Source: an uncultured Synergistales bacterium
GTDB taxonomy: Bacteria > Synergistota > Synergistia > Synergistales > Aminobacteriaceae
Direction: 5' to 3'
Assembly (NCBI GenBank): GCA_905235735.1
Contig: CAJOMU010000011.1
Coordinates: 1 to 54,730, forward strand
DNA: 54,730 bases
The position numbers and the translations under genes are program-made. Shown in pieces: positions 546-44,832 of the stretch (position 1 is the stretch's first letter; each line of letters begins with the position of its first letter). The notes under the pieces were generated by a model, which was given only the letters and a program-made list of their open reading frames with translations, had not been told where the DNA came from and ran no database searches.

Positions 546-815
546 CTAGTCGTCTGGCATATTACTTACGTCAAAGCCCATATCCCTGAACATCTCTTTG
601 ACCGAATCATACACTTTATATTTCTCAGGATGCGCTATCATGTCTTCTTCTTCCCGCATCACTTCCTCCATCGCCGCCGCAAACTTCTCACTGTGATATA
701 ACTCGTAATCCTCCCAGTAATACGCATCTACTTCTTCATCTTCAGGGTTGAACGGTACATCCACTTTCATATCAAATTTCTCTGTCGCCTTTATTGTGTT
801 CATATAAGCATACAT
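546..815 (-). CDS. antitoxin partner of the YafQ-like toxin
   Basis: A small acidic protein (about 89 residues from the ATG at 815; in-frame ATG and GTG codons at 821 and 824 lie within its SD). It contains NTIKATEKFDMKVDVPFNPE and many Glu/Asp residues, and ends YDSVKEMFRDMGFDVSNMPDD-like. Its position directly before the toxin, one base apart, and its opposite charge identify it as the antitoxin. The N-terminus is short for a clear ribbon-helix-helix domain, so I infer the role from context and do not assign a RelB or DinJ subfamily. The C-terminal acidic part would be the toxin-wrapping segment. Confidence 0.7.
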   Translation of the reverse strand: MYAYMNTIKATEKFDMKVDVPFNPEDEEVDAYYWEDYELYHSEKFAAAMEEVMREEEDMIAHPEKYKVYDSVKEMFRDMGFDVSNMPDD

Positions 816-893
816 AATCATCACCCCGTTTCGTATTCTATCATTGCAGATATTTCTTCAGGACTGCTTACTTTCTCTCACAGTTAATAGCTA

Positions 894-3800
894 CTATATG
901 ACTACATCAAGCTGACGAAATAATTCAGATATTTTCTTGTGATAGTCTTCTATGCTCATTCTAGTGCTGTTGTATTCCTGCTCGATTCGTTCACATTCAC
1001 TAACAATCTGCTGTTGTATATCCATAGGCGGAACTGGAATCTTTATGTTTCTTATTGTCTCTATTGATAGTTCTATCTGACCACTTGCACCGTTCGCCAT
1101 TTGTTCAAGAGTTTTAAATCCTATTCCAATGCCAAGAACAAAGAGAACATAACCTGACAGAACTTCATCTTTCGGCCTGAAAATCGTTATATGATTATCT
1201 GCCGCGTAATCACCCTCAAAATCAAACATTGTTACACGTCCAGCAGTCCCTACACCTGTAGAGTTAATGAGTATGTCTCCTCTTTGCAACTTACGTTCAT
1301 CCAGTACAAAATCAGAAGCAAGATAATATTTCTTCGCGAAATCAAATTTATGAAATCCGCGTGCCTGACCAGACTTTATTATCTGTACGTTTGAATTGCC
1401 GTATATAGGAGATCTGCCTCTCTTCAAAAGAACACTTAAATCTGAAAGCCTGTATAACGGATATTTGCTTTCAAGTTCAAATCTCTTCTGTATACTCAAT
1501 CGTATAGCCTTGTTGAATTTTAAGAGGGAAAAATCAATCATTGAACTCAGATTCACAATGCTGGCATACCTCGCATTGTCCTCCGTCATCACTATGTCTT
1601 CATCTCCAAATGACTGCCTCACTACATGTGCAAGTGTCCCTTCAGCATCACGGTTATCATTCTCGTACAGCTTCCCTCCTCTCACCGAATACTGAATCCC
1701 TTCTGCTCCCTTCCTGTTGCTCCAGTCATATCCGAGAAATTCCTTCTGTCCCGCATTATCAGACGGTGAAAGTATCACTACCGTTCGCTGTTTGTACGTC
1801 ATTCCATAATAGAATAACTTCTCAGATTCATTCTTCATCGCATACTCATAGAAACGTATGATGTATTCGTCTGGTCTCTCTTCCTTCAGCTTTTGGGATT
1901 CCTTCTTCGCATTGAACGCTTCAATATACATCCGAAAGTATTCATTCAGTTCTTCAGGGTCTGCTTGGCCATCAGTGAACATCTTCCAGTCTTCTTGTGT
2001 CAGACCTTGCACTTCAAGATAACCTTCAAGTATGTATCTGTCTTCCCAGTCTGAAAGATTACTGCCTGAAAGTATCGCATTCACACTATCCTTCATCAAT
2101 TTGAATCTCTCAGGAGAAAACGCATATCTCTCAAGAAACATCACAACCGTATTTGTTCCTGTTGCTCCGAACGTCTTGCTCCCAAACTGCACAATCGCTC
2201 GTATGATGAACTTCTTCAGTATCTCCTCACGCGCTCCTATGTAACACGCTGAATCATTGCTCAGTATGCTTGAAGGTAATATCACTGCCGCTATTCCTCC
2301 GGGCTTCAAGAGTTGGGCTATTCGTTCAACGAACAAAACTTCTATCTCTGAACTGTTCGCTGTGAGTGCATTGAACAGATTGAAATCATTGTTTCTGAGT
2401 TTCAAATGCTGCATGAATGATGCTATCGAGTACGGCGGATTTGCTGTCAGAATATCAAACGTTCCCGGCTTTATCTGTTCACTGTTCTCAAGTCCATCTC
2501 CAAAGATTATATTGCTCTCTCCTGCTCCGTTCATGAACATTGATACCTTCGATACCCTCGCTAACCTGTAATCCTTCTCAATCCCAAATATACAGTCTCT
2601 CGCCCATGCATTGCTGTTATCGTCAGGGTTCTCTATGAACTTGTTTATTGCTTCAACCGCCTCCGTCAGGAAGTGTCCTGCTCCACATGCATAATCTATC
2701 ACTCTTGGCCATGTCTTATATCTCTTCAATGGAAGACTGTCCCATATGAAACGCGTTATAGGAAGGGGCGTAAAGAACTGTCCTTCGTTCTGTTTGAATC
2801 CCTTATCGAGCAATTGTTCAAATAAATCTCCGAGTACCTGATGATTCGATGTGTGCACTATCTGATACTTCGCGAATAACTGTACAACTTCAGCTAATAT
2901 CTTTCCGTTCTGATAGAACAGAGGCTCATTATGTACATCGAGAAATGCAAAATCATTGTTTGTAAAGAATTTCAGTTTTCTTATCGTCTCTTCTAAGTTC
3001 CTGATTGCCTCTTCACGTCTCTGTCCGGTGTAGTTCATGAATAACTCTCTTGGATATTCTGAAGATATGTACGTTATCTCTTCATGCATGAAATCACGCA
3101 TTCCCTCAGTGTATAATCTCTGAAGCCTGTCCTGTAATGATTCATATGTGTCTATCCTGTGCTTATACTGGAAATCTACTTCATCATCTTCATCTTTCGT
3201 TATCTCGTCTACAAGTTTGCATATGAACAATGCAATCAGTCTGTTGAATGCGTTCTCCTTATCGCTCACGTTATTATGTCTCAGTATCTCCTCGAAGCTG
3301 TTCACGATTCTGTTCTTTCCGTCCTCAAGAAATGTTTGGAGGTCTCGTTTACGTAACGGCTTTAATCCGATGTCATATGCAGATGAATCCTCCGAAAATA
3401 TTATGTCGTCATGAATCTCACGGTTATATGTCTCATTCCAGACTTCATATTTCTTCTTCGCACTGTCCGCATTAACGTAGAGCTTTATGCTGTCGTCCTG
3501 TTCATACCGCATTTTCAGATTCGCATCATCTGAACAGTTTATCGCAGGCGATCTGTATTCTATCGTTCCGTCGTCTTTGATGTCTGACGCGTACAGCACA
3601 AGCCACCTGCATGAACTCTCCTGCTGCCAGTATGAGAATAACTGTGCTCCGTCATTCAATGTGTCCTTCATGGCCTTCTCGAATTCTTTTCCCCACGTCT
3701 TGCACTCAACAATGAAGAGTACGCTCCCTGATTCATCATAGACGCATATATCTGCACGTCCGCCTTTCGGAACATGGCCAAGCTGCCACTGCTTTTCGAG

Positions 3801-4073
3801 TTCAATATGTTCATGATGATAATTTTTCATCAGAAGACGGTACACGCATTCAAAGACAACAAAATTTTCATTCGCATCAAATGAAACGTTACGGTCATGG
3901 CCTCGAATCGAAACAGGATATATCAGCCTGCGTTTTATTATGTCTGCCTGAAGTCCTGAAGACTCATGCGAATATATTCCGTTATTCAATGTGAAACCCG
4001 AAGACCTGAGAAATTTTTCAAAGTTTCCTGAATTTATCACGTTATCGCCTCCGTCTGGTAATATAATATTCAT
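894..4073 (-). CDS. single-chain restriction-modification-specificity protein (type IIG / type I-like fusion)
   Basis: A 1059-residue protein with three parts. Residues about 70-130 carry a PD-(D/E)XK nuclease of HsdR-N type: D108 in GGRADICVYD, then E123 and K125 in IVECKTWGKE. Residues about 410-620 are an N6-adenine methyltransferase with GQFFTP (431-436), motif I YACGAGHF (461-468) and motif IV NPPY (545-548). Residues about 880-1059 form an HsdS-like target recognition domain with a final coiled-coil (PPMDIQQQIVSECERIEQEY). Restriction, modification and specificity in one chain is the type IIG arrangement. No separate hsd genes are near. The start is only 25 bp from the divergent nnrE ORF, so its promoter probably lies inside nnrE. 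Known for the family: the DNA is methylated on one adenine per strand. The recognition site cannot be read from the sequence. Confidence 0.88.
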   Translation of the reverse strand: MNIILPDGGDNVINSGNFEKFLRSSGFTLNNGIYSHESSGLQADIIKRRLIYPVSIRGHDRNVSFDANENFVVFECVYRLLMKNYHHEHIELEKQWQLGHVPKGGRADICVYDESGSVLFIVECKTWGKEFEKAMKDTLNDGAQLFSYWQQESSCRWLVLYASDIKDDGTIEYRSPAINCSDDANLKMRYEQDDSIKLYVNADSAKKKYEVWNETYNREIHDDIIFSEDSSAYDIGLKPLRKRDLQTFLEDGKNRIVNSFEEILRHNNVSDKENAFNRLIALFICKLVDEITKDEDDEVDFQYKHRIDTYESLQDRLQRLYTEGMRDFMHEEITYISSEYPRELFMNYTGQRREEAIRNLEETIRKLKFFTNNDFAFLDVHNEPLFYQNGKILAEVVQLFAKYQIVHTSNHQVLGDLFEQLLDKGFKQNEGQFFTPLPITRFIWDSLPLKRYKTWPRVIDYACGAGHFLTEAVEAINKFIENPDDNSNAWARDCIFGIEKDYRLARVSKVSMFMNGAGESNIIFGDGLENSEQIKPGTFDILTANPPYSIASFMQHLKLRNNDFNLFNALTANSSEIEVLFVERIAQLLKPGGIAAVILPSSILSNDSACYIGAREEILKKFIIRAIVQFGSKTFGATGTNTVVMFLERYAFSPERFKLMKDSVNAILSGSNLSDWEDRYILEGYLEVQGLTQEDWKMFTDGQADPEELNEYFRMYIEAFNAKKESQKLKEERPDEYIIRFYEYAMKNESEKLFYYGMTYKQRTVVILSPSDNAGQKEFLGYDWSNRKGAEGIQYSVRGGKLYENDNRDAEGTLAHVVRQSFGDEDIVMTEDNARYASIVNLSSMIDFSLLKFNKAIRLSIQKRFELESKYPLYRLSDLSVLLKRGRSPIYGNSNVQIIKSGQARGFHKFDFAKKYYLASDFVLDERKLQRGDILINSTGVGTAGRVTMFDFEGDYAADNHITIFRPKDEVLSGYVLFVLGIGIGFKTLEQMANGASGQIELSIETIRNIKIPVPPMDIQQQIVSECERIEQEYNSTRMSIEDYHKKISELFRQLDVVI

Positions 4074-4109: not shown

Positions 4110-4835
4110 ATGCCGCCTGACATTGAAGAAATTGAACACGAACTCGAAGCCTTCTATGATCCTGAAGACTTTCATCGTGAGGTCGTCTATTATGATGTCC
4201 ATTCACCCGAATCAGTATCACGTGATGAAGCCCGTAATGCCGATAAACGTGCAATAGAGACCTTCGGAATCCCAAGCATATTATTGATGGAGAACGCTGC
4301 GCTCGCTGTTGTACGTGAGGTTAAAGAGTATGCGGTATTCGCTGTCATTTGTTCACCTGGAAGCAACGGAGGAGACGGTTTAGCAATTGCACGTCATCTA
4401 TGCATTCTGGGTAAAGATGTTCGCGTGTACATCGTCGGAGACCCGAAGAAAGGAAGTGAGGATTTCAAGACGAATCTAAAAATTATGAGCAAACTTGCAC
4501 CTGAAGTTCTGAACACGATCAATGATGAAAATTTTGAAGAGTTCGAGAGCGCACTTAAAGGATGTGAGACATGCATTGATGCAATTTTTGGAACTGGTCT
4601 TAACCGTCCTGTTGAAGGGATATATGCACGCGTCATTGAGGCCATGAATACTTTCGCAACTCACATAACAAGCGTTGATATTCCTTCGGGACTTGACTGC
4701 GATTCAGGTGAACCTCTCGGTACATGCATTCATGCAACGAAGACCATAACGTTCCACAGAATGAAGAAGGCATTGGACATTTCCCCGCAATATGGAGGAG
4801 ATGTTACAGTATCATACATAGGAATTCCAGACTAA
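4110..4835 (+). CDS. nnrE: NAD(P)H-hydrate epimerase
   Basis: A 241-residue protein of the YjeF N-terminal family. Visible motifs are DEARNADKRAIETFGIP, LLMENAA, the glycine loop GSNGGDGLAIARHL and DAIFGTGLNRP, then SVDIPSGLDCDSG. It epimerises damaged NAD(P)H hydrates so that a dehydratase can repair them. Only the epimerase half is present; the ADP-dependent dehydratase (NnrD) domain often fused behind it is missing. I chose the ATG at 4110; a GTG at 4098 overlaps the AGGAG itself. The downstream secreted-protein gene begins 17 bp after its stop and may be cotranscribed. Confidence 0.92.
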   Translation: MPPDIEEIEHELEAFYDPEDFHREVVYYDVHSPESVSRDEARNADKRAIETFGIPSILLMENAALAVVREVKEYAVFAVICSPGSNGGDGLAIARHLCILGKDVRVYIVGDPKKGSEDFKTNLKIMSKLAPEVLNTINDENFEEFESALKGCETCIDAIFGTGLNRPVEGIYARVIEAMNTFATHITSVDIPSGLDCDSGEPLGTCIHATKTITFHRMKKALDISPQYGGDVTVSYIGIPD

Positions 4836-4852
4836 AATATTCAGGAGATGAA

Positions 4853-7588
4853 ATGATGAAAAAGTTTCTCGCATTAATTTTCCTGCTGTCCATGTGCAAT
4901 ATCTCATGGGGAGCACAGCAATATGATCCGTATAATTTATATTTCTGGTCAAATGATTTATCAACAGAATCAAATGTGTACAGGAATTACGGCAACAGCA
5001 GCTACAATTTCTTCTATCAGCTCAGAGACGTAACAGGTGCATCACGTAATGACAGGGTTGCAGGGCCTCAATGGTTCGCAACGGTCTATGAGAATTACTA
5101 CTACAATGTTTTAGGCGAAGAAAACACAAATGAGAATCGTGGTTTGTATCGCAGGACAATGGGCGGTGAAATCCCTGATGTTAGGTTCTATGCTGTCGGT
5201 GATCTTCTCGACGGATTCAATTTCATCTTTGCAGAAGAACCTCAGCCTTATAGTTCCATATGGCGCAATTACGTTGACCCCAACATTTATGATGAATACC
5301 CTGACCCGTTAGAATCATTCTGTCTGGTCATCACTAACGGACAAGGTGAGTTCAATTTGTCATTAGGGAATCCATACGCGAGACATTTCCCGTTCTGGTG
5401 GTGGAATACAGGAACAGGATCATCGACTGGAGCAAAGTGGTGGCAGGAAGGATATAATGACTGGAGAACTAGTTCACATAAAACACTTGAGCCTATTGAA
5501 TATATTTACTCGGACGGTGTGATATATTCACGCAATGCAAACGGAAGATATATTCAGACGTATAGAATTTCAACAGATGTTTCAGGCGATACAGAGATAA
5601 CTGGTTATCATATTCTGGATACGTCCGGCAATGTTGCTTACACTCTCTCAGGTGATATTGATGACAGCGTACATTACTGGTGCAATCCTGAAGGCAATAT
5701 TGCGTGGATAACCAAAGGCGATGACAAAGTGTATGATTCTGATAACAACATAGCATACACGCTCGAAACGGATATTAACGGAGACATTTATATATGTGCA
5801 GTGAGAGAAATATATGAAGAGGTAGCCTTCTCCGATTTTGATGAAAATTACACATTCTCTGTCAATCCGTCAGGAGAACGTGCAGTATTATCCGGGAATT
5901 ATCTTGATGCAAACGTAAGGGTAAGAGGAATCGATTCAGCGAATTACGGAAGTACGCTCGGATATATGACATTCAGACAGAGAGCAAGTTTTGCAACGGG
6001 CTACAGCAACTACAGAGAGTCAACCTTAATTCCTATGGTGATTGCAAACGTATCAAACGGAAATGCTTCGGATAACCCGTTAATGTTCGACATGATAGTA
6101 TCTGACCAGAATGATAATGTAGTGAACAGAATCAAATTCACATGGGACGCTCAAAGAGATATGCCTGACCAGGATTTGGGGACGTTCTTCATGATGAAAC
6201 AGTTCAATCAGACGACCAGCCCGACATACAAACTTGAAACCCGAATCACTAACAGGACAGGCACACGTTATGAGCTGTACAGATATGATGAAATCAATTC
6301 GAGGCCAAGCGACAGCAATTACAGAGATAATTACAGACAAATAATGCCGGACTACTGGAAGTATGACCTTACAGCGGATATGTATGGCACATTGCCGGAT
6401 TATTTCCTTCTTGATGCTCATAGTCAGATTGCTCCGGGACTCGTTACGGTGTACAAGAACAACGTAGGCGAAGGATACAGGACGATAGACACTCAGTATG
6501 ATACGAGTGAATCATTCAGGCTATACGAATATTCAACGACATCACCGAAAAATCTCAGGCTGAATTATAAGCGCGTTGCAGGAATGACGACAGCAGAAGA
6601 CGGAGTGCCTTACACATACAATGAGATGCCAGCAAGTTCAAACAGCAAGGTAGTCGTGCAGGGGTTCAATATGCAGTTTGCAGATGTTACTCAGAATGAA
6701 AACGAAACTGAATATCAGCTGACTAATCTTATGGGTAAAGCTCCGGCAATGGTTCCGGCAGAACTGAGTACGGTTATGCCTCTTGAAGTGTATATAAGGT
6801 CTTCAGCATTGAACGCTTTCTTAATAAGCATAGATGTACCTGTTGAAGATGATGCAGATTTCGCTAATATCGTGTCCTATGATGAAATAGTTTCAGAAGA
6901 ACCATCTGTGCCTACACCAAATACTTCCGGCGATACATCTACGACATCAACAGTGAAAGCATCAGCAGAATATACATCGGCAAGAGCAGCATTACAGCCC
7001 ATATCGGTGAGATTGAGAATACCAAGACAGTACAGGCTCGTTAATGAAATTTGGAACGAATTGGATTCTGCTTCAAATTCACGGCAGTTATTCGAGAGAT
7101 TCGCAAATCATGGAGCGATATGGGTACGTTCAGCCGCAACAAGAGAACAGGATACGAATTTGTTCACAGCAATCAACAACAGAGGAAGCAATTTAGGTGT
7201 TAGTGCATCTGACTGCATAAGAGCATTCCTGTACAATGATGAACTCTATCTTGATTTCATAGTCTTCATTGCTGACGCTAAGAGCATTAGAGCTGACAGA
7301 ACTGCATTCATTGAAGTGTTCAAAGATGATGATGTTCCTTATATCCTGATTGGTGACGGAGCTATCGATAAGAAATGGAACTTAACATTTTTCGTCGATG
7401 CCACAGGTGATAATCCTGACACAAGAACTCCTGATGTACCAGATACACCAAGTACACCAGATACACCCTCAACACCCGAAACACCAACTGACGGGAATAA
7501 ATCATCAGGCAGTGGCGGAGGTGGAGGCTGTAACTCCGCAATACTCGGAGCGATTGCACTTGTGATTCTGTTTGCACGTAAGCGTTAA
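4853..7588 (+). CDS. secreted protein with Synergist-CTERM sorting signal
   Basis: About 911 residues. The start at 4853 has AGGAG 5 bases upstream and opens with a signal peptide (MMKKFLALIFLLSMCNISWG, cleavage near GA-QQ). The large middle part is Asn/Tyr/Asp-rich and likely beta-structured, with repeated TDVSGDTEITGYHILDTSGN-type motifs; I recognise no enzymatic domain. The end has a Pro/Thr linker (TPDVPDTPSTPDTPSTPETP), a Ser/Gly-rich stretch, GGGGGCNS, a hydrophobic helix (AILGAIALVILFA) and RKR. This tripartite end is the Synergist-CTERM signal, thought to be processed at the Cys and to anchor or sort the protein at the envelope. The role is therefore a surface or secreted protein of unknown function. 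Confidence 0.85.
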   Translation: MMKKFLALIFLLSMCNISWGAQQYDPYNLYFWSNDLSTESNVYRNYGNSSYNFFYQLRDVTGASRNDRVAGPQWFATVYENYYYNVLGEENTNENRGLYRRTMGGEIPDVRFYAVGDLLDGFNFIFAEEPQPYSSIWRNYVDPNIYDEYPDPLESFCLVITNGQGEFNLSLGNPYARHFPFWWWNTGTGSSTGAKWWQEGYNDWRTSSHKTLEPIEYIYSDGVIYSRNANGRYIQTYRISTDVSGDTEITGYHILDTSGNVAYTLSGDIDDSVHYWCNPEGNIAWITKGDDKVYDSDNNIAYTLETDINGDIYICAVREIYEEVAFSDFDENYTFSVNPSGERAVLSGNYLDANVRVRGIDSANYGSTLGYMTFRQRASFATGYSNYRESTLIPMVIANVSNGNASDNPLMFDMIVSDQNDNVVNRIKFTWDAQRDMPDQDLGTFFMMKQFNQTTSPTYKLETRITNRTGTRYELYRYDEINSRPSDSNYRDNYRQIMPDYWKYDLTADMYGTLPDYFLLDAHSQIAPGLVTVYKNNVGEGYRTIDTQYDTSESFRLYEYSTTSPKNLRLNYKRVAGMTTAEDGVPYTYNEMPASSNSKVVVQGFNMQFADVTQNENETEYQLTNLMGKAPAMVPAELSTVMPLEVYIRSSALNAFLISIDVPVEDDADFANIVSYDEIVSEEPSVPTPNTSGDTSTTSTVKASAEYTSARAALQPISVRLRIPRQYRLVNEIWNELDSASNSRQLFERFANHGAIWVRSAATREQDTNLFTAINNRGSNLGVSASDCIRAFLYNDELYLDFIVFIADAKSIRADRTAFIEVFKDDDVPYILIGDGAIDKKWNLTFFVDATGDNPDTRTPDVPDTPSTPDTPSTPETPTDGNKSSGSGGGGGCNSAILGAIALVILFARKR

Positions 7589-38790: not shown

Positions 38791-39675
38791 ATGATTAAAA
38801 CTAACGAACTCCCGAACATTACGGGTTTCAAGAAGACTGACGGCTTCATCGTTGACGCCTCGACAGGTACAGGGCGGCTCACTGGCGACAACGCCGCTGA
38901 GTTCATGAAGGAGTATTTTTTGCAGGGTGGCGTGCCTTATGGCAAGGAATTAATCGAGAGCTGGGCAAGCCTTAACGGACGCATTCGTGCCGGAGATTTC
39001 AGCGGCCTTCATATCGGAGACTTCAAGACAATCACACTCACCACAGGTGAAGTTGTCGTAATGGAGCTTGCGGGCATTGACCAGTATTACAAGTGCGGAG
39101 ATGCACAGATTGGCCATCATGCTGACTTTATCAGCCGTGACTGCTTACAGGGCGGTCGTCGTATGAACGAGGCGGACAACAATAACGGCACAGAAGCTGA
39201 AAAATCCCCGTGGCTTGCGTCCGAGCTGTATCAGGTACTGAACGATGAGACAACAGGCATTTACGCAAAACTTCCCAGCGACCTCAAACCATACATCATT
39301 ACGAAGAGGGCACTACTTGAGGAGCGTTATTCATCTGCCGGAGCGGTTGCCGGTGATACTGGTTGGGCATGGAAAAATGCAGGTAAGCTCTGGCTTCCGA
39401 CTGAGGTTGAGGTTTTCGGACACAGCACTTGGAGTGAACCGGGATATAGCACAGGCGGCGGTGGATGCAATCTTCAGTACCCGATTTTCGCAGGCGGTGC
39501 AAAACACATAATCAAGGGTGACGGTAACGGTGGTTCCCGCTGCCACTGGTGGGAGGCGTCTGCTCATCGGGCGAGTTCCGCGTACTTCTGCCTCGTCAAC
39601 CACAGCGGCGACGCCAACTCCATCTATGCCAGCTACATCGGCGTTCGCGCGCCCCTCTGCTTCCGAATCGGTTAA
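38791..39675 (+). CDS. DGR-diversified C-type-lectin-like tail protein (target protein)
   Basis: 294 residues, AGGAGG before the ATG. The N-terminal 150 residues hold LTTGEVVVMELAGIDQYYKC and HADFISRDCLQGGRRMNEAD; then comes a CLec/formylglycine-enzyme-like fold of the DUF6273 kind (WLASELYQVLNDETTGIYAK, LWLPTEVEVFG, GDGNGGSRCHWWEASAHRAS, VRAPLCFRIG). Residues about 248-291 are encoded by the variable repeat. They have many residues at positions where the template gives Asn (AAC/AAT). The protein should sit at the tail tip or fibre and bind host receptors, with diversity created at those sites. It is the only target gene I see in the window. Confidence 0.9.
   Translation: MIKTNELPNITGFKKTDGFIVDASTGTGRLTGDNAAEFMKEYFLQGGVPYGKELIESWASLNGRIRAGDFSGLHIGDFKTITLTTGEVVVMELAGIDQYYKCGDAQIGHHADFISRDCLQGGRRMNEADNNNGTEAEKSPWLASELYQVLNDETTGIYAKLPSDLKPYIITKRALLEERYSSAGAVAGDTGWAWKNAGKLWLPTEVEVFGHSTWSEPGYSTGGGGCNLQYPIFAGGAKHIIKGDGNGGSRCHWWEASAHRASSAYFCLVNHSGDANSIYASYIGVRAPLCFRIG
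39533..39664 (+). repeat. DGR variable repeat (VR)
   Basis: 132 bp at the 3' end of the target gene, aligned without gaps to 40202-40333. I count 20 mismatches. In 19 the template has A and the VR has C, G or T; one (39641, VR T against template C) is not at an adenine. One of the 19 is the final A at 40329 (VR C), which lies past the conversion boundary I propose. The 14-bp run CGCGCGCCCCTCTG near the end is identical and is the likely initiation-of-mutagenic-homing core. Confidence 0.95.
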
Positions 39676-39686
39676 TCGACTATCTC

Positions 39687-39705
39687 CCGCCCCCATGTGG
39701 GGCGG
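39687..39705 (+). other. hairpin downstream of the VR
   Basis: CCGCCCC pairs with GGGGCGG (7 bp) around a CATGT loop, 22 bp after the VR and 11 bp after the target stop. A GC hairpin at this place is known to help retrohoming in the Bordetella phage DGR. No T-tract follows, so it is not a standard terminator. Confidence 0.75.
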
Positions 39706-39747
39706 TATAGTAGCCTAACGTGAGCGGAATTAAGGAGCTGAATAACT

Positions 39748-40164
39748 TTGAGTGTACTGAAACGAAATCGCAGTGAGAGTCATCTGGAGTTCTACCATAC
39801 CGCGACAATAATACGTTCCGATTTGACCCGCTTTGTGATGAATGAAAAGATTGTACCGAAGCGGTGGAGACCTGTGTTTACGTTTCCGATGATAGAACGT
39901 ATAAACCGCTTAATGGATAACATAACAGCAGCGAACACGATTTATCCGCAGAATCTTCGTGAAGCTGAAACGCGCAGGGATTACCAGACTGCTGCTATCA
40001 TAACTGTTGAGCAGATTTTTCAGCTCCTTCAATTCTTGCTCGATACGTTACCGATTGATCCTGATAAATTTCAGGCCGTGACAGAGATGCTTGTTAAGGA
40101 AAGTGCTTTGCTTCGCGGTTGGAGAAAAGCAGATTATAAGTTCATAACACAATTTCAGAATTAA
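39748..40164 (+). CDS. avd: DGR accessory variability determinant (Avd)
   Basis: 138 residues from TTG 39748 (AAGGAG upstream). The sequence is mainly helical and basic: HLEFYHTATIIRSDLTRFVM, NEKIVPKRWRPVFTFPMIER, TAAIITVEQIFQLLQFLLDT, KESALLRGWRKADYKFI. Four helices of this pattern form the Avd barrel, a pentamer that binds the RT and template RNA. Its place between target and template repeat is the standard order. Confidence 0.88.
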   Translation: MSVLKRNRSESHLEFYHTATIIRSDLTRFVMNEKIVPKRWRPVFTFPMIERINRLMDNITAANTIYPQNLREAETRRDYQTAAIITVEQIFQLLQFLLDTLPIDPDKFQAVTEMLVKESALLRGWRKADYKFITQFQN

Positions 40165-40201
40165 ATTTTTATCGGTTATGCGCTGTATTTTTGCTGGTTT
40201 A

Positions 40202-40333
40202 GTTCCCGCTGCAACTGGTGGGAGGCATCTGCTAATCGGACGAATTCCACGAACTTCTGCAACGTCAACAACAACGGCAACGCCAACAACAACAATGCCA
40301 GCAACACCGGCATTCGCGCGCCCCTCTGATTCC
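40202..40333 (+). ncRNA. DGR template repeat (TR) RNA
   Basis: 132-bp copy of the VR lying between avd and the RT gene. It is rich in AAC/AAT triplets placed at target codons, which is the usual design for adenine-directed diversity. Just after it, CAGCC-TGAA-GGCTG (40338-40351) forms a small hairpin, and the run to the RT gene (to 40574) has no ORF and probably belongs to the functional RNA. Transcript ends cannot be read from sequence. Confidence 0.93.
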
Positions 40334-40574
40334 ATGTCAGCCTGAAGGCTGGGCCAGACCAAGTAAGTCCTTGAGACTGAAAGCCGTGCCAATTCTTGAA
40401 TTATGGAAGGAGCGCATGACCGTCCCGAAAGGGTAAATATGCCTCGTGATGTAATTGGGCGGACGCTTTCGTGCTTGGTCAAGGGTTCTGTGCAGATTAC
40501 CTTGATTTCAGGCCCAGTATTGCTATGCGGCTATGCAAAGATGCACTCGCCTTTGTTGAGAGGGGAATCTCAGC

Positions 40575-41918
40575 ATGAGGCGATTTGCCGTACACGTGGC
40601 TTTTTCATACAAGGAGGCAATTTTAATCGTGACATCCCTTGAACGGCGGCGCGAAGGTAGATACCAACGCAAAAAAGCCGTAAGAGAAGCTAAGAAAAGC
40701 AAGCGGTATGCAGAGTACAACAACTTTCACAATATCACGTGTTACCGCTCGCTTTATCAGGCAAACAAGAAGTCCATGCGAAATGTCTCATGGAAAGCAA
40801 GTGTTCAGAGATACCAAATGAATCTCCTCCGTAACATGGAACGGGCGCGTTATTCATTGGAGCATGGAAAAGATATTACTAAGGGCTTTGTGGAGTTTGA
40901 CATCATGGAGCGCGGGCGACTTCGCCACATTCGCAGTATTCATTATTCCGAGCGGATTGTTCAGCGGTCAACTTGCGATAATTCTCTCGTGCCTATGCTG
41001 CGCCGAAGTTTAATTTATGACAACGGTGCGTGTTTGGAGAACAAGGGTGTAGACCAAGCACTAGACAGATTGACAGCACACCTTCAGCAGTTTTATCGTG
41101 CTAACGGATTTTCTAACGAAGGGTATGCGTTGGTGTTTGATTTTTCGGGGTTCTTCGACAATATTTTGCATAGTTACTGTTTTGAGATTTACAGGAATGT
41201 TTATACAGACAAGCAAATTTTGTGGCTGCTGACCTGCTTTATTTTACCATTCGGACACCCTAACAGCACAGTGGCGTATAAGCGCATACGGCGTGATAAT
41301 GTAATGGACGGCTACACAGGTATTAGCCTCGGCTTAGGTAGCCAAATTTCCCAAATCACCGCTGTAACCTATCCGTCAGCCATAGATCACTTTATCAAAG
41401 AATGGATGCGCATTCAATTTTATGGGCGTTATATGGATGACGGGTACATGTTATTCAAAACGAAGTCAGAAGCTAAGAATGCTCTCCGTATTTTAGAGAA
41501 GCTGTGTTTTACCCTGAGTATCAAGCTGAACATGAGGAAGACGCAGATTATAAAACTGCGGAACGGCATACGCTTTCTTAAAGTACGGTTGAGATTAACC
41601 GAGACGGGCAAAGTTAAGCGTCGAATGACCCGTAAAAGCATTACGCGACAGCGGCGCAAGCTGAAGAAATTTGCAACGATGGTCGCCGCCAAAAAGATGA
41701 CCGTTCAGGAGGCTGCTAATTCTTATGCCTCGTGGAAGGGTTACGCAATCCATCGCGGTGGGTACATGGCCACAAAGAAGATGGACAATCAATTTAGGAC
41801 ACTGTTCGGAGTGAAAGCTCCAGAGTGTAATACAAGAAAACGGAGGAAAAAATTATGTCAAAGAACACAACAACAAAGGAAACAACAACCGAGAGTGTTG
41901 CAACTGAAAACGGTATAA
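40575..41918 (+). CDS. DGR reverse transcriptase
   Basis: 447 residues. RT motifs in order: YALVFDFSGFFDNIL (catalytic Asp 189), the DGR-type SLGLGSQISQ (251-260) that replaces QGxxSP, and YMDD (286-289). The N-terminus is basic (RRREGRYQRKKAVREAKKSK) and the C-terminus very basic (RKRRKKLCQRTQQQRKQQPR). A second start, GTG 40629, has AAGGAGG 11 bases upstream. It copies the TR RNA with random bases opposite adenine and gives the product that replaces the VR. The 3' end overlaps the next gene by 64 bp in another frame. Confidence 0.93.
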   Translation: MRRFAVHVAFSYKEAILIVTSLERRREGRYQRKKAVREAKKSKRYAEYNNFHNITCYRSLYQANKKSMRNVSWKASVQRYQMNLLRNMERARYSLEHGKDITKGFVEFDIMERGRLRHIRSIHYSERIVQRSTCDNSLVPMLRRSLIYDNGACLENKGVDQALDRLTAHLQQFYRANGFSNEGYALVFDFSGFFDNILHSYCFEIYRNVYTDKQILWLLTCFILPFGHPNSTVAYKRIRRDNVMDGYTGISLGLGSQISQITAVTYPSAIDHFIKEWMRIQFYGRYMDDGYMLFKTKSEAKNALRILEKLCFTLSIKLNMRKTQIIKLRNGIRFLKVRLRLTETGKVKRRMTRKSITRQRRKLKKFATMVAAKKMTVQEAANSYASWKGYAIHRGGYMATKKMDNQFRTLFGVKAPECNTRKRRKKLCQRTQQQRKQQPRVLQLKTV

Positions 41919-43428: not shown

Positions 43429-44832
43429 TTAGAAAGCCCATTCGATTTTAATATCATTACCAGTCAATACAATTCTGCGAACAAGGCTTTGCAAAATGCG
43501 TCGTTTCTGTTCTTCATCAGCAAAGTCCCAGATTTGTGCAGCATTAGCGATAAGTTCCTGCACCAAATCGAAAGTCATTGTGTTATCAACCGGAACAGGT
43601 TCAAGAGAGGCTTGTAGTGCTGTCTTTTCGTTATAGAGCTTGTTGATGTTTTCACCCAGAATTTCGGTAGGTATGTCATCACGCTGGTATAGCTCCATGA
43701 GCTTGTTGATTTGCCGGTCGATTTCCCGTACCCGTTTCTCAATCTCGATGTTTTTTACAGGAATAGAAACTTCAGATTTACGTACCGCCATAAGTTCCTC
43801 TGTCATCAAAGGTGAACGTAAAAATTCTCTTACTTTCTTTTCTACTAATGGTTCTAGCTCTTCAGCTTTCCAATTACGATTTTTGCAATTCGGGTCTTTC
43901 ACCATTTTACGAATCTGCTTTGAACGAGAATAACAAGTATAGTAAGAATATTTACCCGTGATGCGTTTATAATATCTCGCTCCGCAGTAACCACAAAACA
44001 GCATACCCGTCAAAAGATATTTTGACTTAAAAGCTGTTGTTCCATATTTCTCTTTTCTCTTAGCATGTATAATTTGTGCCATATTAAATTGCTCCCTACT
44101 GATAATTGCTTCATGAGCGTTTTCCACTATCACCTCTCCGAAGTGAAGCTGTCCTGTATACGTTTTATTGCCTAAGACATTCCTTACACTCGACCACGAT
44201 TTCCAACTACCATATCTGTTTGCATATCCAGCCTTGTTCAATCGCTTTGTAATTCCAGATAAAGATTCCCCAGCGATATACCACTCATAAATTTTTCGCA
44301 CCTGTTCAGCTTCATATGGATTAACAACTAACTTTCCGTTTTCATAGTTATATCCAATAGGGATATAACCGCCTCCGTGATGCAGTCCTAACTTTGCCCG
44401 TGCAACACGTCCCATTTTGGTGCGCTCTTTGATTTGTTCTCGCTCAAGCTGTGCAAAAACAGCCAGCAGACCAATCATAGCTTTTCCGAACGGTGTAGAA
44501 GTGTCGAAGCTCTCCTGTACTGAAACAAAATCAGCATTGTTCGGAAGGAAAACATCTTCAATAAGATACAGTGTGTCTCGCTGAGAGCGTGAGAGACGGT
44601 CGAGCTTGTAGACAAGCACAATGTCGCAACCCTTGATGTCCACAATCAGCTTTTGAATGCCCGGACGATTAAGATTACTTCCAGAATAGCCAGGATCAAC
44701 GTAAATCTCTACGATTAGCCAGTCGTGTGCTTTACAGTACGCAACAAGACGTTCTTTTTGTTCGCCGACAGAATAGCCCTCCTGAGCTTGTTCTTGAGTT
44801 GATACACGGATATAAAGAAATACGCGCTTCAT
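43429..44832 (-). CDS. large serine recombinase (probable phage integrase)
   Basis: 467 residues. Resolvase domain with catalytic Ser in YIRVSTQEQ (S11) and LDRLSRSQRD; recombinase domain from about 155 (GYIPIGYNYENGKLVVNPYE, AEQVRKIYEWYIAGESLSGI); zinc ribbon CGYCGARYYKR...YYTC; then coiled coil (EKRVREIDRQINKLMELYQR). This is the full large-serine-integrase plan. The start overlaps the upstream repressor stop by 4 bp, so the repressors and integrase are one translationally coupled unit. Confidence 0.93.
   Translation of the reverse strand: MKRVFLYIRVSTQEQAQEGYSVGEQKERLVAYCKAHDWLIVEIYVDPGYSGSNLNRPGIQKLIVDIKGCDIVLVYKLDRLSRSQRDTLYLIEDVFLPNNADFVSVQESFDTSTPFGKAMIGLLAVFAQLEREQIKERTKMGRVARAKLGLHHGGGYIPIGYNYENGKLVVNPYEAEQVRKIYEWYIAGESLSGITKRLNKAGYANRYGSWKSWSSVRNVLGNKTYTGQLHFGEVIVENAHEAIISREQFNMAQIIHAKRKEKYGTTAFKSKYLLTGMLFCGYCGARYYKRITGKYSYYTCYSRSKQIRKMVKDPNCKNRNWKAEELEPLVEKKVREFLRSPLMTEELMAVRKSEVSIPVKNIEIEKRVREIDRQINKLMELYQRDDIPTEILGENINKLYNEKTALQASLEPVPVDNTMTFDLVQELIANAAQIWDFADEEQKRRILQSLVRRIVLTGNDIKIEWAF

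Follow-up and report, generated by a model that had tools for sequence, protein, structure and literature searches.

The window (the whole stretch of DNA that was analysed, 54,730 nucleotides) contains at 38791-41918 a cassette that is an ordinary diversity-generating retroelement (DGR), of a kind already known. Judged from sequence, this DGR is almost certainly complete, with all of its parts present, and it resides in a contractile-tailed prophage. The added value of the analysis lies in the family-level anatomy of the RNA and in a natural experiment provided by two near-identical phages, L141 and L142. Specifically, we consider it likely that the Rfam family RT-2 is the spacer that binds the reverse transcriptase (RT) in a large clade of gut-phage DGRs; that a covarying helix outside the Rfam model closes the template RNA, brackets the template repeat (TR) and sets the stop for cDNA synthesis; and that the target-site loop is of the CTTGT/CATGT type, unlike that of BPP-1.

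Cassette components and prophage setting

The first-pass annotation had described a complete DGR comprising, in order, a target gene, Avd, TR and an RT. Indeed, all four were found at 38791-41918, on the forward strand and in this order:

38791..39675, + strand: target gene, 294 aa, DUF6273, predicted C-type-lectin-like fold, variable repeat at the C-terminus
39533..39664, + strand: variable repeat (VR), identified by its mismatches to TR
39644..39664, + strand: 3' homing signal of VR, IMH-like, TTCGCGCGCCCCTCTGCTTCC
39687..39705, + strand: target-site hairpin, CCGCCCC-CATGT-GGGGCGG
39748..40164, + strand: Avd, 138 aa, TTG start
40173..40184, + strand: 5' arm of the TR-bracketing helix, pairing with 40411-40422
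40202..40333, + strand: TR, from the alignment with VR and relatives; its last adenine difference, 40329, is probably a fixed homing-signal base
40349..40620, + strand: spacer RNA, Rfam RT-2 (RF03077)
40411..40422, + strand: 3' arm of the TR-bracketing helix, within the RT-2 match
40629..41918, + strand: RT, 429 aa, probable GTG start, LGLGSQISQ and YMDD intact, aligned over its full length with relatives

The target protein scored above the Pfam cut-off for DUF6273, a domain that has been reported in the DGR targets of Faecalibacterium prophages (PMC11792537). VR encodes residues 248-291 of its 294 residues. The predicted structure (pLDDT 86) had its strongest match in an IgA-peptidase N-terminal region (Z 16.4), and it also aligned with the DGR protein TvpA (Z 6.6), the mannose receptor (5.6), Mtd (5.3) and several C-type lectin domains. 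These lectin Z-scores are middling yet mutually consistent, and the model supports the C-type-lectin-like end proposed in the annotation. Based on the fold and on the position of the gene after the tail-fibre genes, the target may bind a receptor.

The 138-aa ORF matched phrog_3206 in PHROGs (E 3e-5) and shares the N-terminus MSVLK with its relatives. In the predicted structure it forms a four-helix bundle similar to that of BPP-1 Avd (4dwl; Foldseek probability 0.99, E 0.3). Foldseek E-values were all above 0.001 and there was no significant direct profile match to BPP-1 Avd; the family match and the predicted fold nevertheless support its earlier assignment as Avd.

The RT was 24% identical to BPP-1 bRT (BLASTP E 5e-18), which was also its best PDB match (8ub7, E 6e-12), and it matched phrog_1423 (E 4e-69). 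Scores as a retron, group II or defence RT were far under the NCBIfam cut-offs, and these assignments were rejected. The full-length protein contains the SQ motif (LGLGSQISQ) and GRYMDD, as previously noted. An inactivating change in the catalytic site, which the first-pass annotation had said would count against its reading, was absent: YMDD is intact. The most likely start is GTG 40629, after AAGGAGG, where the N-termini of relatives match; ATG 40575 was the rejected alternative. A SAM/SAH riboswitch match within the RT gene was under its cut-off and was taken as chance.

The cassette is preceded by sheath, tape-measure, baseplate and tail-fibre genes and followed by endolysin, holin and serine recombinase genes. 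Sheath (phrog_205), baseplate (phrog_6) and tape-measure families identify the phage as contractile. To its left lie genes for aspartokinase, homoserine dehydrogenase and semialdehyde dehydrogenase; these are host amino-acid biosynthesis genes, and the phage is therefore an integrated prophage, as had been claimed. Its right end is off the contig. For the host phylum, given as Synergistota in the annotation, a 16S gene was sought, and the assembly contained none. The serine recombinase (43429-44832) is large, is likely the integrase and has the lysis and the repressor genes on either side, away from the left host flank. Elsewhere in the window, a restriction-modification protein (894-4073), in which methylase and specificity domains were recognised, lies beside a 954-aa ORF (4724-7588) that had no Pfam match at E 0.001.

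Variable repeat, homing signal and activity

The alignment of VR with TR is free of gaps along all 132 bp, and 20 positions differ. TR has an adenine at nineteen of these (A>G 7, A>C 6, A>T 6); the remaining one is a C-to-T change at codon 283. Given 36 adenines in the 132 positions of TR, the binomial probability of at least 19 of 20 mismatches falling at adenines is 2.8e-10. These counts agree with those first reported, but one site is to be read differently. TR adenine 40329 (C in VR, A in TR) falls within the 3' homing signal, and mutagenesis is probably not the source of this mismatch, because the same difference occurs in most relatives: with the 3' ends aligned, VR GCTT faced TR GATT in 99 of 144 loci, and the related forms GCT/GAT and GCTTC/GCTCC were found in 10 and 17 of them, respectively. 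The evidence for mutagenesis in the pair would then comprise 18 adenine sites, the nineteenth being a fixed homing-signal difference; when this site is left out, 18 of 19 differences are at TR adenines (P 7e-10). The annotation's inference that the system has worked since VR and TR last had the same sequence is reasonable for the 18 sites; the nineteenth is a fixed difference.

The GCTT/GATT difference corresponds to the one between IMH and IMH* in BPP-1; here it is a single base, conserved over much of the clade. In the target frame, TR consists mostly of Asn codons, consistent with the template Asn noted earlier at most varied codons, and each of these can turn into 15 amino acids and never into a stop. 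Codon 290 is the exception, with TGA in TR and TGC in VR. Due to the base difference in the homing signal, TR can therefore carry TGA without truncating the target. The fixed C/A difference would distinguish the recipient, VR, from the donor, TR, and would keep the TGA out of the target gene. We also considered whether the same TR serves further VRs. An A-masked scan of the window and a BLAST search of the 2.1-Mb assembly both yielded no second match, and this possibility was rejected.

A homing signal and, after VR, a hairpin are expected of a DGR, and both are present. The hairpin, at 39687-39705, lies 22 nt after VR and has a 7-bp GC stem. A hairpin of this sort is required for efficient homing in BPP-1, where it consists of a 7-10 bp GC-rich stem and a GRNA tetraloop, the published phage consensus (PMC3240598). 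The window has the stem, but its loop is CATGT, of 5 nt, and not a GRNA tetraloop. Hairpins at 130 clade loci were scored against shuffled sequences: the score found in 90% of the loci was reached by only 5% of the shuffles. The loops of the clade were mostly 5 or 6 nt long, including CTTGT (26), CTTTGT (10), CTCGT (6) and CATGT (5).

The related loci were 160 in number, fetched by RT alignment from viral and genome collections. A repeat pair was present in 147 of the 166 loci examined, window included, and nearly all pairs were adenine-biased; among the 2,047 mismatches counted over 130 non-redundant pairs, 2,005 faced a TR adenine. The nearest relatives of the cassette are L141 and L142 (target 80% and 77% identical, respectively; RT about 71%), deer-rumen contigs of near-identical phages from two deer samples. 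Over 7,224 aligned bp they differ by 23 mismatches, every one of which lies in VR opposite a TR adenine. As evidence from nature for mutagenic retrohoming, this pair is very clean. In each of two further pairs, L072/L073 and L096/L172, 17 of 17 mismatches were at TR adenines. The VR-only changes between L141 and L142 argue for recent activity in nature of this lineage, as read from the relatives' copies.

The same genome contains a second DGR, in a prophage remnant (L039, G000:C30, about 723-2658, minus strand). Relative to G022, L039 retains the target gene, but a deletion that begins where Avd starts and reaches roughly one third of the way into RT has removed TR. With TR, most of Avd and the first third of RT gone, it is a deletion fossil whose VR is frozen. 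Prophage DGRs of the RT type of this fossil, with YTDD rather than YMDD, are frequent in the host genus (L031 and L040-L057, from related genomes that mostly belong to it); in several of them the VR/TR pairs are biased to adenine and the hairpins have CTTGT loops, and no RT-2 was found. In a second member of the genus (L060, G019:C11), a VR/TR pair whose 14 mismatches are all at A lies at a contig end together with an RT-2 RNA, the RT being beyond the cut.

Based on the fossil, the DGR of this individual prophage might likewise be dead, its VR having been diversified in the past and the system or the prophage now being defective. Consistent with this, no near-identical copy of the prophage with another VR was found in IMG/VR, 100 related genomes or the genome-contig collection, such that variation of its own VR was not seen, and the right end of the prophage lies beyond the contig. 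However, the RT is full-length with YMDD and SQ motifs; Avd, TR, the spacer RNA with its helix, the homing signal and the hairpin are all intact; and close relatives are active. We therefore regard a dead element as unlikely, and a functional DGR as the better reading.

The template RNA

The spacer between TR and RT matched Rfam RT-2 (RF03077) over the full model length with 98 bits, against a gathering score of 40. Of the 43 relatives scanned, 34 had RT-2 in this position, adjacent to a DGR RT, and the further RT-2 copies inspected also adjoined a DGR RT. The spacer of BPP-1 belongs to a different Rfam family, Phage_DGR (RF03022), which was found in BPP-1 only; the spacer of the window matched RT-2 alone. 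Because RT-2 lies beside DGR RTs, where BPP-1 has Phage_DGR, it is best read, by analogy, as this clade's equivalent of that spacer. RT-2 would thereby gain a functional home. The family is reportedly described in Weinberg 2017; in the papers searched, nothing connected RT-2 with DGRs. A priming duplex between the 3' end of TR and the spacer was also sought; candidate positions did not converge, and a conserved duplex was rejected.

A 12-bp helix pairs 40173-40184, between the Avd stop codon and TR, with 40411-40422 in the spacer. The Rfam structure of RT-2 draws the latter stretch unpaired and does not contain the helix, and an unconstrained fold of the window RNA recovers it. In 130 loci, duplexes scoring at least 12 numbered 79, versus 3 in duplexes from mismatched loci; at a score of at least 13, the numbers were 56 and 0. 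In the 33 distinct arm pairs, both sides changed at 10 of 12 base pairs, and the covariation score was 0.819, as compared with 0.250 after shuffling and at most 0.195 after sliding. The arms had been selected for complementarity, and the mismatched-locus control is a fairer test than the covariation score. In BPP-1, a motif in the avd mRNA terminates cDNA synthesis (PMC12875486), and a comparable avd-spacer pairing, of CGCCGAAG with CTTCGGCG, is suggested by prediction. By extension, the helix would hold the ends of TR together and block the RT upstream of TR.

We also considered that RT-2 and the helix serve expression of the RT, as an upstream regulatory leader, rather than forming part of the template transcript. 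RT-2 ends right before the RT ribosome-binding site and could also affect translation, and Rfam lists it as an sRNA in a table that does not mention DGRs. Against a leader, one arm of the helix lies upstream of TR, such that the pair encloses TR. Moreover, the spacer at the same place in BPP-1 recruits RT-Avd and primes cDNA (PMC12875486), and it falls in the Phage_DGR family. A leader function is accordingly quite improbable, and RT-2 with its helix is preferably placed in the template RNA.

A Spirochaetaceae MAG (L226, 160-930) contains two tandem RT-2 RNAs before one RT, each after a sequence resembling a TR. Of the 29 mismatches between these two sequences, 18 are at A; the second has the look of a copy of the first with adenines substituted, as if the duplicated TR had itself been rewritten.

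Proposed mechanism and comparison with known systems

Following the BPP-1 model, RT and Avd would bind the avd-TR-spacer transcript via the RT-2 spacer, and cDNA synthesis, error-prone at adenines, would begin near the 3' end of TR. The 12-bp helix, bracketing TR and joining its ends, would stop reverse transcription at a point about 15 nt upstream of TR. VR would then be replaced, upstream of the homing signal and with the help of the hairpin, by the mutagenised cDNA, yielding phages whose lectin-like protein varies at the VR-coded residues. Such adenine-directed mutagenic retrohoming had been proposed in the first-pass annotation, and it is supported by the homology of RT and Avd, the adenine bias, the lectin-like target fold and the VR-only changes in the nearest relatives. 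That VR and TR are instead an ordinary diverged duplication, biased by chance or composition, has only its generality in its favour and is of negligible probability given a P of about 3e-10, the recurrence of the bias in 130 independent relatives and the existence of relatives that differ at TR adenines only, which already refutes it.

The cassette shares with BPP-1 (mtd, avd, TR, brt) the order target-avd-TR-spacer-RT, a homologous RT, the adenine bias, a C-type-lectin target, a GC-rich hairpin after VR, a structured spacer with an Rfam family and possibly the avd-spacer pairing. It differs in the family of the spacer, in its 5-nt CATGT loop and in the low identity of the RT. In addition, the upstream arm of the helix lies between Avd and TR in the window and would lie inside avd in BPP-1. 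The covarying template helix can be set against the BPP-1 RNP structures (8ub7, 8ube).

Other RT-2 gut-phage DGRs, such as those of Roseburia phage Shimadzu (LR596903) and L141/L142, resemble the cassette in layout, RT (43-71% identical), RT-2, bracketing helix, GCTT/GATT difference and C..GT hairpin loops. They differ by sequence divergence only, and the N-terminal parts of the targets are different. The DGRs of the Faecalibacterium prophages Roos, Pioen and Lelie likewise have a DUF6273 target with VR at the C-terminus, but their RTs are about 28-31% identical to that of the window. In two of the Faecalibacterium phages, the DGRs were active as judged by read variation (PMC11792537).
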